Part shown: in pieces, positions 51,016 through 59,386 of the stretch
How the letters are laid out: each line of letters starts with the position of its first letter
How positions within the stretch are numbered: position 1 is the first letter of the stretch
NCBI GenBank assembly: GCA_022402445.1
Contig: JAKRSF010000007.1
Coordinates: 124,001 to 188,000 of the forward strand
From: Cyanobacteriota bacterium
GTDB lineage: Bacteria > Cyanobacteriota > Cyanobacteriia > CACIAM-69d
Length of the DNA stretch: 64,000 bases
Direction: 5' to 3'
The notes under the pieces: model-generated
Database searches by the model: none
Seen by the model: only the letters and a program-made list of their open reading frames with translations
Told to the model about the DNA's origin: nothing
Translations under genes and position numbers: made by a program

Positions 51016-51434
51016 CAGGGCTCAACCTCGCCACAGACTCCGCCAGTTACAAGCCCAGGAAACCTAGCCATCTCCCAGACGCCGACCCTCCCCAAGACAC
51101 CACAGGTATCCAAGGGATTGAATGAAGTGATCCTATGGCAGAACTCAAGTACCCGTTTTTGCTTTTATGGTTTCTTAGGTATTCCATGCGCCTTTGGCAC
51201 CCCCTAGCAACTCCGACGGTCCGAGGGCTCACCCGCGATCGCCCGAGGGAGCCCTAGGGATTTGCATCGTTCCGAATCCCCACAACCACCCAACCTCAAA
51301 CCCCCAACACAAAGGAGCCGGATCGATCCCCATCGGATCAACCCGGCTCCCCAACCTCAGCCCGCAAGGCTTCAGATCATCAAACCGCGAACCTACTCTC
51401 AATTAACCTAGGTCATCAACCTAGGCCGTTAACC
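51016..51434. other. 419-base intergenic region
   Basis: Contains the leader of the small membrane-protein gene and the 3' region of the first tandem surface-protein gene, including a hairpin at 51314-51350. No other gene or RNA was identified. Confidence 0.35.
51314..51350 (-). terminator. Hairpin downstream of first surface-protein gene
   Basis: GGAGCCGG at 51314-51321 pairs with CCGGCTCC at 51343-51350, about 85 bases past the stop of the leftward gene; only a short T-run follows on the minus strand. Confidence 0.45.
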
Positions 51435-52427
51435 TTAGACCGTGCGGCGGCGGCGCACCCCCGTCATCGCCAAGCCCAGCGTCGCCAAGCCCAGAATCGT
51501 ACCCGGTTCCGGCACGCTCGCCTCTTCAACCACCGGCGGCGGCGTCGCCACACTTCCCATCAGGGCCACCCCATCGTTGATGCACTCAAACAGCAGCGTC
51601 GCCGTGAAATCCCCCACCATGTCCGCCGTGCGCTTCACGCTGAACACCGTCGTGTGGGTGCCCAACTTCGCCGTGTTCACACCGTTGAGGCCCAGGCTCG
51701 CTTGGGTAGCGTTCGGATTGTTGAGGTTCGTGATGCCCCGCGCCGCCGCATTCGCCGCCAAACCACCCTTGAAGTCGAGACCCAGGGACAGGATGTCGTC
51801 ATAGAAGGTCACGCCCCCTTGGAAGGTGCCCGTGGCGATGTTGGTCGGGGCGCTGCGGCTCTGGTTGTACCAGCTCAGGGTCGTCGGATCCACATCCCCA
51901 AAGGAGTTGCCGTAGGCGTTGCTGCCGCTGCCCACGAAGCTCGCCATGGTGGAGTAGCCGTCGTTCACCGCCGTCATGTCCTTGGTGGTGACGTTGGAAT
52001 AAAGACCATTCGCCAACGCCTGGGGACGATCCGCGCCGCCGACCTTTTTGCCATCGTTGACGCCAGAGTCATTGAGGCTAGCGAAGTTGATGCCGAAGGT
52101 GCCGCCATTGGCAAAGGACAGCATCAAATCCCCAAAGTTGATGTGACCGTCACCAGCCGTGGAGGCAGCGTTGCCGTGGCGGCTGGTGTTGGCGTTGACG
52201 GCAAAGAAAATTTCGTCACCCACCTGCTTGTAGGCCATGCCATACATTTCGTAGGCGTTGCCCCCACGGCCGCTGACGTCGGAGCCGTCGGTGAAGGAGT
52301 CGATTACATAGTTCCAGTCGCCGAAGAGGGTGCCGGCCTGGGCGGGGGCGGCGGTGGTGGCGATCGCGGAGCATAGGGCGATCGCGAGGCCAGTCAGCGG
52401 TGCGCGGTTGGTTAGTTTGGTAAACAT
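51435..52427 (-). CDS. PEP-CTERM exosortase-dependent surface protein, tandem copy 1
   Basis: An exported 330-residue protein. The signal peptide ends near ATTAAPAQA at about residue 31; mature sequence starts GTLFGDWNYVIDSFTDGSDV, as in the XDD-type exosortase-dependent surface proteins of cyanobacteria. The C-terminus has VPEPGTILGLATLGLAMTGV followed by basic RRRRTV, the PEP-CTERM sorting signal. ATG 52427 follows GGAG by eight bases. It shares 404 identical bases at its 3' end with the next gene upstream and a related leader region, showing recent duplication or gene conversion. No exosortase gene is in view. Function is unknown. Confidence 0.85.
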   Translation of the reverse strand: MFTKLTNRAPLTGLAIALCSAIATTAAPAQAGTLFGDWNYVIDSFTDGSDVSGRGGNAYEMYGMAYKQVGDEIFFAVNANTSRHGNAASTAGDGHINFGDLMLSFANGGTFGINFASLNDSGVNDGKKVGGADRPQALANGLYSNVTTKDMTAVNDGYSTMASFVGSGSNAYGNSFGDVDPTTLSWYNQSRSAPTNIATGTFQGGVTFYDDILSLGLDFKGGLAANAAARGITNLNNPNATQASLGLNGVNTAKLGTHTTVFSVKRTADMVGDFTATLLFECINDGVALMGSVATPPPVVEEASVPEPGTILGLATLGLAMTGVRRRRTV

Positions 52428-52953
52428 TTCGGGAGCTCCAAAAATCTTGCAGTGTGGGTCAGACGTGTCATGGCTGCACCTTCTACATTCAGACTATGGG
52501 CAAACTTCATGGGCAACCGAGAAGCTTGGGTGATTACTCCATAAAGGTTTCGTGAACCCTTGATGGCAGCTTCATATTTGACGACTCGTCTAAACTTGTC
52601 GCCTGAAAAACGCCCCCTAGGGTCCAAAAAAGTTTAAGAAAGCTGAAGAAAACCTGCGAAGTTTCAAGACCCTCCGCTGCGATTTTCCGTGGGGGGTGGG
52701 CTCCGCCGTAGGACGGTTCGGAACAGGAGGTGGGTGCCCCCGCGATCGCCCCTCGTCCCCGACCAGGTGCCCAATGATCCATGGGCCATCCTCGCCCTAG
52801 AGCGCATCGGTGGCCGCCCCTATCCCCCCAGGAAAAACACCCCCGTGGGAAAGGGGCCAGATTGAACCCCACGGCATCAACCTGACCCCCCGGCAAGCCA
52901 CCAAAACGTCCGATGCTAGATCCTCAGGCATCCCCCCCATGGGGGACCGGAGC
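52428..52953. other. 526-base gap between tandem surface-protein genes
   Basis: Carries two sequences also found upstream of the second copy: GACGTGTCATGGCTGCACC plus TTC at 52462-52483 (matched at 54187-54208 with one change), and AAAGGTTTCGTGAACC at 52543-52558. The remaining 390 bases are unlike those upstream of copy 2 and hold no recognisable gene or terminator. Confidence 0.5.
52543..52558 (+). promoter_or_regulatory. Conserved upstream motif, copy 1
   Basis: AAAGGTTTCGTGAACC lies 116 bases from the ATG of the first surface-protein gene; the related AAAGCTTCCGTGAACC lies 118 bases from the second. Equal placement suggests a regulatory site, although shared ancestry of the leaders could also explain it. 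Confidence 0.45.
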
Positions 52954-54150
52954 CTAGACCGTGCGGCGGCGGCGCACCCCCGTCATCGCCAAGCCCAGCG
53001 TCGCCAAGCCCAGAATCGTACCCGGTTCCGGCACGCTCGCCTCTTCAACCACCGGCGGCGGCGTCGCCACACTTCCCATCAGGGCCACCCCATCGTTGAT
53101 GCACTCAAACAGCAGCGTCGCCGTGAAATCCCCCACCATGTCCGCCGTGCGCTTCACGCTGAACACCGTCGTGTGGGTGCCCAACTTCGCCGTGTTCACA
53201 CCGTTGAGGCCCAGGCTCGCTTGGGTAGCGTTCGGATTGTTGAGGTTCGTGATGCCCCGCGCCGCCGCATTCGCCGCCAAACCACCCTTGAAGTCGAGAC
53301 CCAGGGACAGGATGTCGTCATAGAAGGTCACGCCCCCTTGGAAGGTGCCCGTGGCGATATTGGCCGGGGCGCTGCGCTTTTGGTTGTAGTAGCTCAGGGT
53401 CGTCGGATCCACATCCCCAAAGGAGTTCCGGTAGGCGTTGCTGCCGCTGCCCACAAATTGCGCCATGGTCTCGTAGCCATTGTTCACCGCCGTCATGTCC
53501 TTGGTGGTGACGTTGGAGTAGAGGCCGTTTTCCAACTGGGCGGGGCGATTTTCGTAGGTGGTCTTGTAGCCGGAAATGTAGGTCTCGGTCTCGGTGCGGT
53601 AGATTTTCTTGTAGCTAGAGATGTAGCGCTCGCGGGTCCGGGTGAGGGTCGGTCTGCCGTTGGCGTCATAGGTGGTGGTGGTCACCGTGCGGGTGCTGTA
53701 GACCGGCTCTTCGCGATCTAGAACCTTGATGTTTCGGGTCTTGTAGATGGGGGTTTTGACTTCCATCTTGAGGCCGTCGTCGCTGCCGGAGTCGTTGAGG
53801 CTGGCGAAGTTGATGCCGAAGGCGCTGCCGTTGGCGAAGGAGAGCATCAGGTCACCAAAACCGATGTGGCCATCCTTGGCGCTGGAGGCGGCGTTGCCAT
53901 CGCGGTTGGTGTTGGCGTTGACGGCAAAGAAGATTTCGTCGCCCACTTGCTTGTAGGCCATGCCGTACATTTCGTAGGCGTTGCCCCCACGGCCACTGAC
54001 GTCGGAGCCGTCGGTGAAGGAGTCGATTACATAGTTCCAGTCGCCGAAGAGGGTGCCGGCCTGGGCGGGGGCAGCGGTGGTGGCGATCGCGGAGCATAGG
54101 GCGATCGCGAGGCCGGTCAAGGGGGCGCGGTGGGTCAAGGCTTTCAGCAT
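52954..54150 (-). CDS. PEP-CTERM exosortase-dependent surface protein, tandem copy 2 with insertion
   Basis: Paralogue of the downstream gene, about 398 residues. Signal peptide, XDD-type start (GTLFGDWNYVIDSFTDGSDV) and PEP-CTERM tail are almost identical, and the last 404 coding bases match exactly (52955-53358). It differs by about 70 extra residues encoded around 53548-53766, rich in Tyr, Thr, Arg and Lys, with repeated YISSYKKIY and YISGYKTTY units. Start ATG 54150 with GGAG eight bases upstream; the more upstream ATG 54210 is unlikely. Exported and anchored or released by an exosortase; function unknown. Confidence 0.85.
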   Translation of the reverse strand: MLKALTHRAPLTGLAIALCSAIATTAAPAQAGTLFGDWNYVIDSFTDGSDVSGRGGNAYEMYGMAYKQVGDEIFFAVNANTNRDGNAASSAKDGHIGFGDLMLSFANGSAFGINFASLNDSGSDDGLKMEVKTPIYKTRNIKVLDREEPVYSTRTVTTTTYDANGRPTLTRTRERYISSYKKIYRTETETYISGYKTTYENRPAQLENGLYSNVTTKDMTAVNNGYETMAQFVGSGSNAYRNSFGDVDPTTLSYYNQKRSAPANIATGTFQGGVTFYDDILSLGLDFKGGLAANAAARGITNLNNPNATQASLGLNGVNTAKLGTHTTVFSVKRTADMVGDFTATLLFECINDGVALMGSVATPPPVVEEASVPEPGTILGLATLGLAMTGVRRRRTV

Positions 54151-54267
54151 GGTAGGGACTCCAGAAATCCTGCGGTCGAAGTTTGAGACGTGTCGTGGCT
54201 GCACCTTCAACTTCTACGTTAAGGGTGATCTTTGCTGGAGTCGGAAAAGTTTCTGCGATCGCTAATT

Positions 54268-54283
54268 AAAGCTTCCGTGAACC
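54268..54283 (+). promoter_or_regulatory. Conserved upstream motif, copy 2
   Basis: AAAGCTTCCGTGAACC, 118 bases from the ATG of the second surface-protein gene; differs from copy 1 at two positions within the 16-base window. Confidence 0.45.
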
Positions 54284-54448
54284 TTAGGGATGATCTTTAA
54301 AAGTTGACAGATTGTCGATTTTCTTTTGTAGGGCAAGGCTTACAGGAATTGGGATGGCACCCCAAAAACTCCATGAATAACAATGCCCCCTGGGGAGATA
54401 AAACTATCCGGATGTGATGTTTTTTGCTGGAATAGTTTAGGTTCCGGG

Positions 54449-57240: not shown

Positions 57241-58017
57241 ATGGTTGCCCAAATTCAATCCCTCGCGCCGCCACCGCCCATTTCACCACCGCCCCCGCGC
57301 GATCGCAGCTCCATTGAATATCCCAGCACCGACGGAGAACCCTTGGCCGAAAGTTTTCTGCATCTCTACGCCATCTTCTGCATTCTCGAAGTGTTGTTGC
57401 AATACCTCAACGGGCAACGGGCGGCGGTTCTCGCGAATCAGTTTTTGTACTACAGCGAAGGGTTTCCCAATCTCCGCGCAGCACCCGATGTGATGGTGAT
57501 TTTCAATGTAGAACCCGGCCCACGGGATCACTACAAAATCTGGGAAGAGGGAGAACCACCGGCAGTTGTTTTTGAGGTCACTTCCCCTTCCACAAAAAGC
57601 AATGACCTACAGGGAAAAAAAGTTCTTTACCATCAGCTTGGGGTACAGGAATATTGGCTTTTTGACCCCAAGGGTGAATGGATCAAGGGGCAGTTGAGGG
57701 GCTATCGCTTCGCAGAAGAGGGCTATGTTGATATCCCCGCCGACGAAGCCATTAGTCAAGTTTTGGGCTTGCGGCTCGTGGTGGAAGGGGCATTGCTGCT
57801 GTTTGAACGGTTGGATACGGGCGATCGCCTCCTGACCCCCCAGGAACTTCGGGCCAAGCTCGCCGATGTCCAAGAACAGATTGAAGCGGCGGCCCAGCGC
57901 GCCGAAGCCGAAGCTCAACGGGCAGCCGAAGCGGAGGCTAAAGCAGCAGCAGCAGAAGCCAAGGCTGAAGCCCTCGCGGCAAAACTGCGGGCTTTAGGCA
58001 TTGATCCGACGGTTTAA
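57241..58017 (+). CDS. Uma2 family protein with coiled-coil tail
   Basis: Second Uma2/DUF820 putative endonuclease in the window, about 258 residues. The core contains AAPDVMVIFNVEPGPRDHYK (Asp region), VVFEVTSPSTKSNDLQGKK (Glu and Lys region) and YHQLGVQEYWLFDPKGEW. The C-terminal 60 residues are an Ala/Glu/Gln/Lys heptad-like coiled coil (AQRAEAEAQRAAEAEAKAAA), common in long Uma2 proteins. An N-terminal Pro-rich stretch precedes the domain. ATG 57241 is the start. The next gene begins 13 bases later on the same strand. Biological role unknown. Confidence 0.85.
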   Translation: MVAQIQSLAPPPPISPPPPRDRSSIEYPSTDGEPLAESFLHLYAIFCILEVLLQYLNGQRAAVLANQFLYYSEGFPNLRAAPDVMVIFNVEPGPRDHYKIWEEGEPPAVVFEVTSPSTKSNDLQGKKVLYHQLGVQEYWLFDPKGEWIKGQLRGYRFAEEGYVDIPADEAISQVLGLRLVVEGALLLFERLDTGDRLLTPQELRAKLADVQEQIEAAAQRAEAEAQRAAEAEAKAAAAEAKAEALAAKLRALGIDPTV

Positions 58018-58030
58018 GCCAAATAACGCG

Positions 58031-59386
58031 ATGGTTATATATGAAACGCCCAAAAGCTTGAGTTTGGGCATTGATTTCGGCACGTCCGGCGTCCGGGCGA
58101 TCGCGGTGGAGCCGACCACGGGGGCGATCGCGGGCATAGCGCGGCTGTCCTTCGATGGCGATCGCGGGCCATCCCTGGCGACGGCGTGGCGATCGCTGCT
58201 CTTCGAGGCGATCACGGCCCTCGATCTGGACGTGCGGCGGGCGGTGGGGGCGATCGCGATCGATGGCACCTCGGGCACGTTGCTGTTGTGCGATCGCGGC
58301 GGCACGCCCCTCGATGAACCGATTCTGTATAACGACGATCGCGGCGGCGAATTTTTAGGCCAGATCCGGGCGATCGCCCCGGCCAGTTCCCCCGCCGCCA
58401 GCGCCAGCAGCGCCTTTGCCAGGGCCTGGTGGTGGCGTCAGACCCGCCTCGGGGGCGCATGGCCCAACCCTGCCGAAGGGCTCCAACTCCTGCACCAGGC
58501 GGACTGGCTAGCCGGAATCCTCCACGGGCAGCCCCGCCGCAGCGATTATCACAACGCCCTCAAGCTGGGCTACGACCCGGTGGCCCTGGCCTATCCCGAT
58601 TGGCTCGCGGGCCTCGATCTCGCCCCGGCCCTGCCCCAGGTGATGGCCCCCGGCGACGACATGGGGCCAATTTTGCCGGAATTGGCGCGATCGCTCGACC
58701 TATCCCCCACCTGCCGCATCAAAGCGGGCACCACCGACAGCATCGCCGCATTTTTAGCCGCAGGGTGCGATCGCCCCGGTCAAGCGGTCACCTCCCTCGG
58801 ATCGAGCCTCGCCCTGAAACTACTGAGCCGCCGCCCCCTCCAGGATCAGGCCACGGGGGTCTATAGCCATCGCTTCGGCCCGGATCTGTGGCTTGCCGGG
58901 GGCGCATCCAACACCGGTGGGGCCGTGCTGCGGCACCTCTTTCCGGGGGATGAATTGGACCAGCTAACCGCCCAACTCACGGCGCAATTTTTGCAACTAT
59001 CCCCAAAAACTCTCCCAGGGCCGCTCCCAGAGCCGATCGCGCCCTACTATCCCCTCCTGAAACCAGGAGAGCGCTTCCCCGTCAATGATCCCCACCTGCC
59101 CCCGAACCTAGAACCCCGCCCCCGCGATCGCGCCACCTTCCTCTACGGGGTTTTGGCCGCGATCGCGCGCATCGAAGGGGAAGGCTACGGCAAACTCATG
59201 GCCCTCGGGGGCGACCCACTCACGGAAGTCAGGAGCGCCGGGGGCGGGGCCGACAACCCCATTCAAACGGCCCTGCGCGCCCAAAGGTTAGGGGTACCGG
59301 TAACGCGATCGCCCCAAACCGAAGCCGCCTACGGCACCGCCCGCCTCGCCGCCCACGGCCTTTGCCCCATCACGCGCCAACCGTGA
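58031..59386 (+). CDS. FGGY-family sugar kinase, probable D-ribulokinase
   Basis: A 451-residue kinase of the FGGY family. The first phosphate motif is LGIDFGTSGVRAIAVEPTTG; the central AIAIDGTSGTLLLCDRGG and IKAGTTDSIAAFLAAG fit the xylulokinase/ribulokinase-like group, and the adenosine segment GGASNTGGAVLRHLF is present. It belongs near the short cyanobacterial/plant subgroup (SePSK, AtXK-1) reported to act on D-ribulose. Start ATG 58031 immediately follows the Uma2 gene; an upstream in-frame ATG at 58001 overlaps it. Specificity is inferred from subgroup resemblance. Confidence 0.85.
   Translation: MVIYETPKSLSLGIDFGTSGVRAIAVEPTTGAIAGIARLSFDGDRGPSLATAWRSLLFEAITALDLDVRRAVGAIAIDGTSGTLLLCDRGGTPLDEPILYNDDRGGEFLGQIRAIAPASSPAASASSAFARAWWWRQTRLGGAWPNPAEGLQLLHQADWLAGILHGQPRRSDYHNALKLGYDPVALAYPDWLAGLDLAPALPQVMAPGDDMGPILPELARSLDLSPTCRIKAGTTDSIAAFLAAGCDRPGQAVTSLGSSLALKLLSRRPLQDQATGVYSHRFGPDLWLAGGASNTGGAVLRHLFPGDELDQLTAQLTAQFLQLSPKTLPGPLPEPIAPYYPLLKPGERFPVNDPHLPPNLEPRPRDRATFLYGVLAAIARIEGEGYGKLMALGGDPLTEVRSAGGGADNPIQTALRAQRLGVPVTRSPQTEAAYGTARLAAHGLCPITRQP

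Follow-up and report, generated by a model that had tools for sequence, protein, structure and literature searches.

A tandem pair of XDD3-family surface-protein genes

We analysed a window of 64,000 nucleotides from a cyanobacterial genome. Two genes lie there in tandem, separated by 526 bases; both genes, and all the features of the pair given below, are on the minus strand. Gene A (51435–52427) encodes a protein of 330 residues. Its tandem paralogue, gene B (52954–54150), encodes 398 residues when read from the ATG, and an open upstream TTG is also present at 54210. We compared both products with the XDD3 family of exosortase-dependent surface proteins (NF041930, NCBIfam), and both exceeded its curated cut-off (80 bits; A, 121.6 bits; B, 127.3 bits). 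Both have signal peptide-like N-termini and PEP-CTERM tails, as the sequence-only reading had noted for the two products. The tails passed the cut-off of TIGR02595 and that of PF07589 (Pfam; A, 21.1 bits; B, 22.7 bits; cut-off, 20.7). Judged by the published list of PEP-CTERM features (PMC1569441), the proteins have the full architecture, with a PEP motif, a hydrophobic helix and a basic tail at the C-terminus, which ends VPEPGTILGLATLGLAMTGVRRRRTV. A and B are thus like other members of the family in score, N-terminus and tail, and B differs by a 68-residue insert that none of the 94 relatives compared has.

According to the PEP-CTERM/exosortase model, such proteins stay in the inner membrane, held there by their tails, until the exosortase processes them (PMC1569441). 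The same genome encodes an exosortase, detected as a single PF09721 match (174.2 bits, G000:C6). Motility, biofilm formation and polysaccharide adhesion depend on the exosortase CrtB in Nostoc punctiforme (PMC12188702). By this analogy, both products are probably exported and would connect the cell surface with the cell's own polysaccharide. We found no paper when we searched the literature for XDD3 together with exosortase, no significant match when we searched the PDB by sequence, and no further copy of A or B in the genome (4.08 Mb, 13 contigs).

The similarity of the two genes extends beyond their coding sequences. Upstream (promoter) regions are homologous over about 150 bases (52431–52582 for A and 54155–54308 for B; local alignment score 86, shuffle maximum 35). 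On the 3' side, strong hairpins lie 60–80 bases past both stop codons, at 51312–51352 for A (−34.3 kcal/mol, z −6.6) and at 52851–52891 for B (−28.5 kcal/mol, z −3.6); the former is the probable transcript end of A. The two hairpins are homologous as well, more weakly than the upstream regions (local score 61, shuffle maximum 43), and in the alignment, read by eye, two stem pairs have changed on both sides with pairing kept. A homologous upstream region combined with a homologous 3' hairpin indicates that the duplicated unit was the whole transcription unit. Because both flanks are homologous but diverged, the duplication must be older than the identity described below.

Identical 3' ends in a diverged gene pair

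We compared the 3' ends of the two genes directly. Bases 51436–51839 in A (codons 197 to stop) and 52955–53358 in B (codons 265 to stop) were identical at 404 of 404 positions, exactly as first noticed, and the identity could not be extended on either side. The region contains no N bases. The outer edge of the block (51436/52955) falls inside the stop codon, which differs between the genes (A, TAA; B, TAG); identity would end there because the flanks had long diverged before the block was copied. Over the aligned coding sequences (993 sites), A and B show 93 differences. When the 993 sites were shuffled 20,000 times, the longest identical run was 129 bases, and an analytic bound puts the chance of a 404-base run at about 10^-20.5.

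The identity extends to synonymous sites. None of the 107 synonymous sites in the block differed, and there were no amino-acid differences, whereas outside the block pS was 0.22 in codons 1–67, 0.51 in codons 68–128 (dS 0.84) and 0.26 in codons 136–195. The contrast between the block and the rest of the same pair is highly significant (Fisher p = 3e-13). The 95% upper bound on synonymous divergence in the block is about 0.028 per site, so the time since the two blocks last shared a sequence is within a few per cent of that over which the gene middle has diverged. Of the block's 134 codons, about 24 belong to the PEP-CTERM segment; the ectodomain makes up about four fifths of the block.

The upstream halves of the genes had been described as diverged. 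The gene middle does differ, but part of the apparent divergence was an artefact of comparing the genes at the fixed offset of 1519: a 204-base insert in B moves the register from offset 1519 to 1723. After re-alignment, identity per 25 codons was 77–99% in the N-terminal half, and between the insert and the block it was 80–91%. A second near-identical tract covers the signal peptide and the start of the mature protein (52273–52391 in A, 53996–54114 in B). It corresponds to nucleotides 37–155 of A and has one mismatch in 119 bases, with 41 identical bases on one side of it and 77 on the other; a run as long as the latter is itself unexpected outside the block (run-length shuffle test, p = 0.00015). 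Divergence peaks on both sides of the insert. Read from 5' to 3', the pair is a mosaic of a near-identical tract, a diverged centre around the insert and the 404-base block, a pattern that points to at least two events of different age.

A predicted spike in the product of gene B

The insert in B (53557–53763, about 204 bases) contains a degenerate 45-bp tandem repeat, which suggests that it may have grown by internal duplication. AlphaFold, whose model of B has a mean pLDDT of 82.5, predicts that the insert folds as one long beta-hairpin, with strands at residues 129–161 and 167–200 (33 and 34 residues), that sticks out from a beta-rich core. Confidence over the predicted hairpin is high, with block pLDDT values of 85–91. 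In the model of A, the same loop is low-confidence and has no hairpin.

We sought homologues of the insert in 291 genomes of the class and found none in the 290 besides the source genome. Across 96 family members, the loop that carries the insert is 16–19 residues long in 91, 39–42 in three, 32 in A and 100 in B; the three loops of 39–42 residues are Thr-rich with a Gly/Asn turn. Shorter Thr-rich hairpin-like inserts were seen in the same loop in three distant relatives (L060:2039–2980, L067:3998–4945, L091:3941–4882), which suggests that the loop is a site of recurrent growth and loss.

A structure search with the model of B gave no match at E ≤ 0.001. Its weak matches were driven by the hairpin and included the stems of pore-forming toxins and the stalks of bovine ultralong antibodies (best VIA-align Z 4.7). 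We considered B as a pore-former and dropped the idea, because Thr and charged residues abound on both faces of the predicted strands. Of all the features of the gene pair, the predicted spike is the most unusual. It gives the XDD3 family, on which we found no study in the literature searched, a concrete and testable feature.

Origin of the identical block

The relatives searched all belong to genera other than that of the source genome. Tandem XDD3 pairs also occur in the taxonomic family's other two genera (G001 and G003; G002 and G004, a Limnothrix-type genus), and a small number of other cyanobacteria have them too. An alignment search gave 80 loci, one of which identifies G004 as Limnothrix sp. 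CACIAM 69d. A and B group as sisters (support 100) in a tree of 96 proteins, in which the pairs from other genera form separate clades of their own. In G002/G004, 157 site patterns were of the orthologue type versus 1 of the concerted type; in G001/G003 the counts were 64 versus 16. These tandem pairs therefore give no sign of continuing homogenisation, and within the XDD3 family recent events of this kind are not the norm. In the last third of the gene, pS was 0.38–0.78 between other tandem paralogues and 0.67 between genera.

Taken together, these results make it by far the most probable that the identity arose by a recent and partial gene conversion between two tandem copies of older origin. 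Local identity, synonymous sites included, is far above that of the rest of the pair, and the flanks outside the tract are diverged. The synonymous test thus supports the recent conversion that the sequence-only reading had put forward. Its second suggestion, that the 3' end was partially duplicated very recently, is not a separate explanation: a copy that lies in frame, in the homologous place and between diverged flanks is the same event as conversion.

A different matter is whether conversion maintains the sorting and anchoring part, as was also suggested. In its general form this idea holds that tandem XDD3 3' ends are repeatedly converted because the C-terminal half and the anchor must match. 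Synonymous divergence is indeed lower in the last third of the pairs of G002 (Fisher p = 0.003), G004 (p = 0.0001) and G003 (p = 0.002), and no such bias is seen between genera (p = 0.86), which together give a hint of an older, milder 3' bias in some tandem pairs. However, G002 and G004 have a common history, so that the bias reflects at most two events, and the pairs of G001 and G314 show none. The preponderance of orthologue-type sites in G002/G004 speaks against recurrent conversion, as does the position of the sole concerted patch in G001/G003, which is mid-gene and rests on 6 versus 5 sites. The anchor makes up only a small part of the block, and the second tract lies at the opposite end of the gene. 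The family's tandem pairs keep their paralogue identity up to the 3' end, even though three of the four have less synonymous divergence there. We therefore regard recurrent concerted evolution as unlikely, and our analysis of A and B does not support the view that conversion maintains the anchor.

A hybrid gene with a recently copied 3' end could also arise when misaligned copies cross over unequally, or when an expansion to three genes is followed by contraction. Such exchange typically acts on tandem direct repeats, the block sits at one end of the unit, and crossing-over followed by loss could produce part of the pattern. A single crossover, however, would have taken the 3' flank along, and here identity stops in the stop codon; with strongly diverged flanks and a second tract at the other end, this origin appears improbable. 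An assembly or polishing error that made both 3' ends alike deserves mention because 404 bases exceed a short read. Yet each copy is flanked by unique sequence on both sides, the stop codons differ, one copy is 204 bases longer than the other, both lie inside a 192-kb contig of the 13-contig assembly, and an assembler would not merge copies differing at 10–20% of sites; we consider such an error very improbable. Least credible of all, and close to negligible, is that strong selection on the protein, the RNA or an overlapping antisense frame froze the 3' ends. Antisense open frames do run across the block, but the block is not equally conserved in other species, and its lack of any synonymous difference contrasts with the last-third divergence of the other pairs and between genera. 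Protein constraint in particular is ruled out because it does not act on synonymous sites.

Gene conversion would fit the following sequence of events. An older tandem duplication of the whole transcription unit, comprising upstream region, gene and 3' hairpin, would have given rise to A and B. The copies would then have diverged, and their central loops would have come to differ by the 68-residue beta-hairpin spike. At least one earlier event would have made the signal-peptide ends alike. Very recently, homologous recombination would have replaced the final 404 bases of coding sequence in one copy with those of the other, most likely by RecA-dependent gene conversion between sister chromosomes, and one end of the tract would have halted at the end of homology, inside the stop codon. 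The central region with its 204-base heterology would have remained unconverted. In this scheme the identity, the mosaic and the synonymous contrast are demonstrated, and we infer the RecA dependence, the sister-chromosome template, the direction and the action of the insert as a barrier. A length difference of the insert's size is a recognised obstacle to strand exchange, and the divergence peak on both sides of the insert fits such an obstruction.

In A and B (51435–54150), codon endings move from C to G towards the 3' end. We dropped third-base usage as a guide to the direction of conversion, since several other genes of the window show similar or opposite gradients.

A and B might also be a display pair, in which repeated conversion keeps the two ends of a secreted, anchored core similar and only one copy carries the spike in its central loop. 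This reading is speculative and rather doubtful. If it were true, the spike region would be protected from homogenisation by the very difference in length, and the spike could be exchanged or lost when the identical arms recombine.

The mechanism is ordinary and well known, bacterial precedents exist, and A and B are a clean example of it. The products of the tandem genes PE_PGRS17 and PE_PGRS18 of Mycobacterium tuberculosis are probably surface-associated. As in A and B, these tandem duplicates show a substitution block and an in-frame length difference that the copies share and that are read as gene conversion (PMC1762029). They belong to a protein family unrelated to XDD3, and strain panels show both states (PMC1762029), whereas A and B represent one genome with a fully identical tract of 404 bases. 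In cyanobacteria, the photosystem paralogues psbA and psbD were likewise made alike by conversion, recurrently and over very long times (PMC6053082). Unlike these genes, A and B show one recent partial tract, and their relatives are without lasting homogenisation. The pair would thus represent recent partial conversion in cyanobacterial tandem surface-protein genes, with a diverged centre at the length difference and homogenised ends.

An FGGY-type kinase gene (58001–59386, plus strand) lies 3.9 kb from A and B, and its homologue adjoins the tandem pair in G001 and G003. The arrangement in the window differs from theirs; the gene is possibly a remnant of an ancestral neighbourhood, a connection that is suggestive only.
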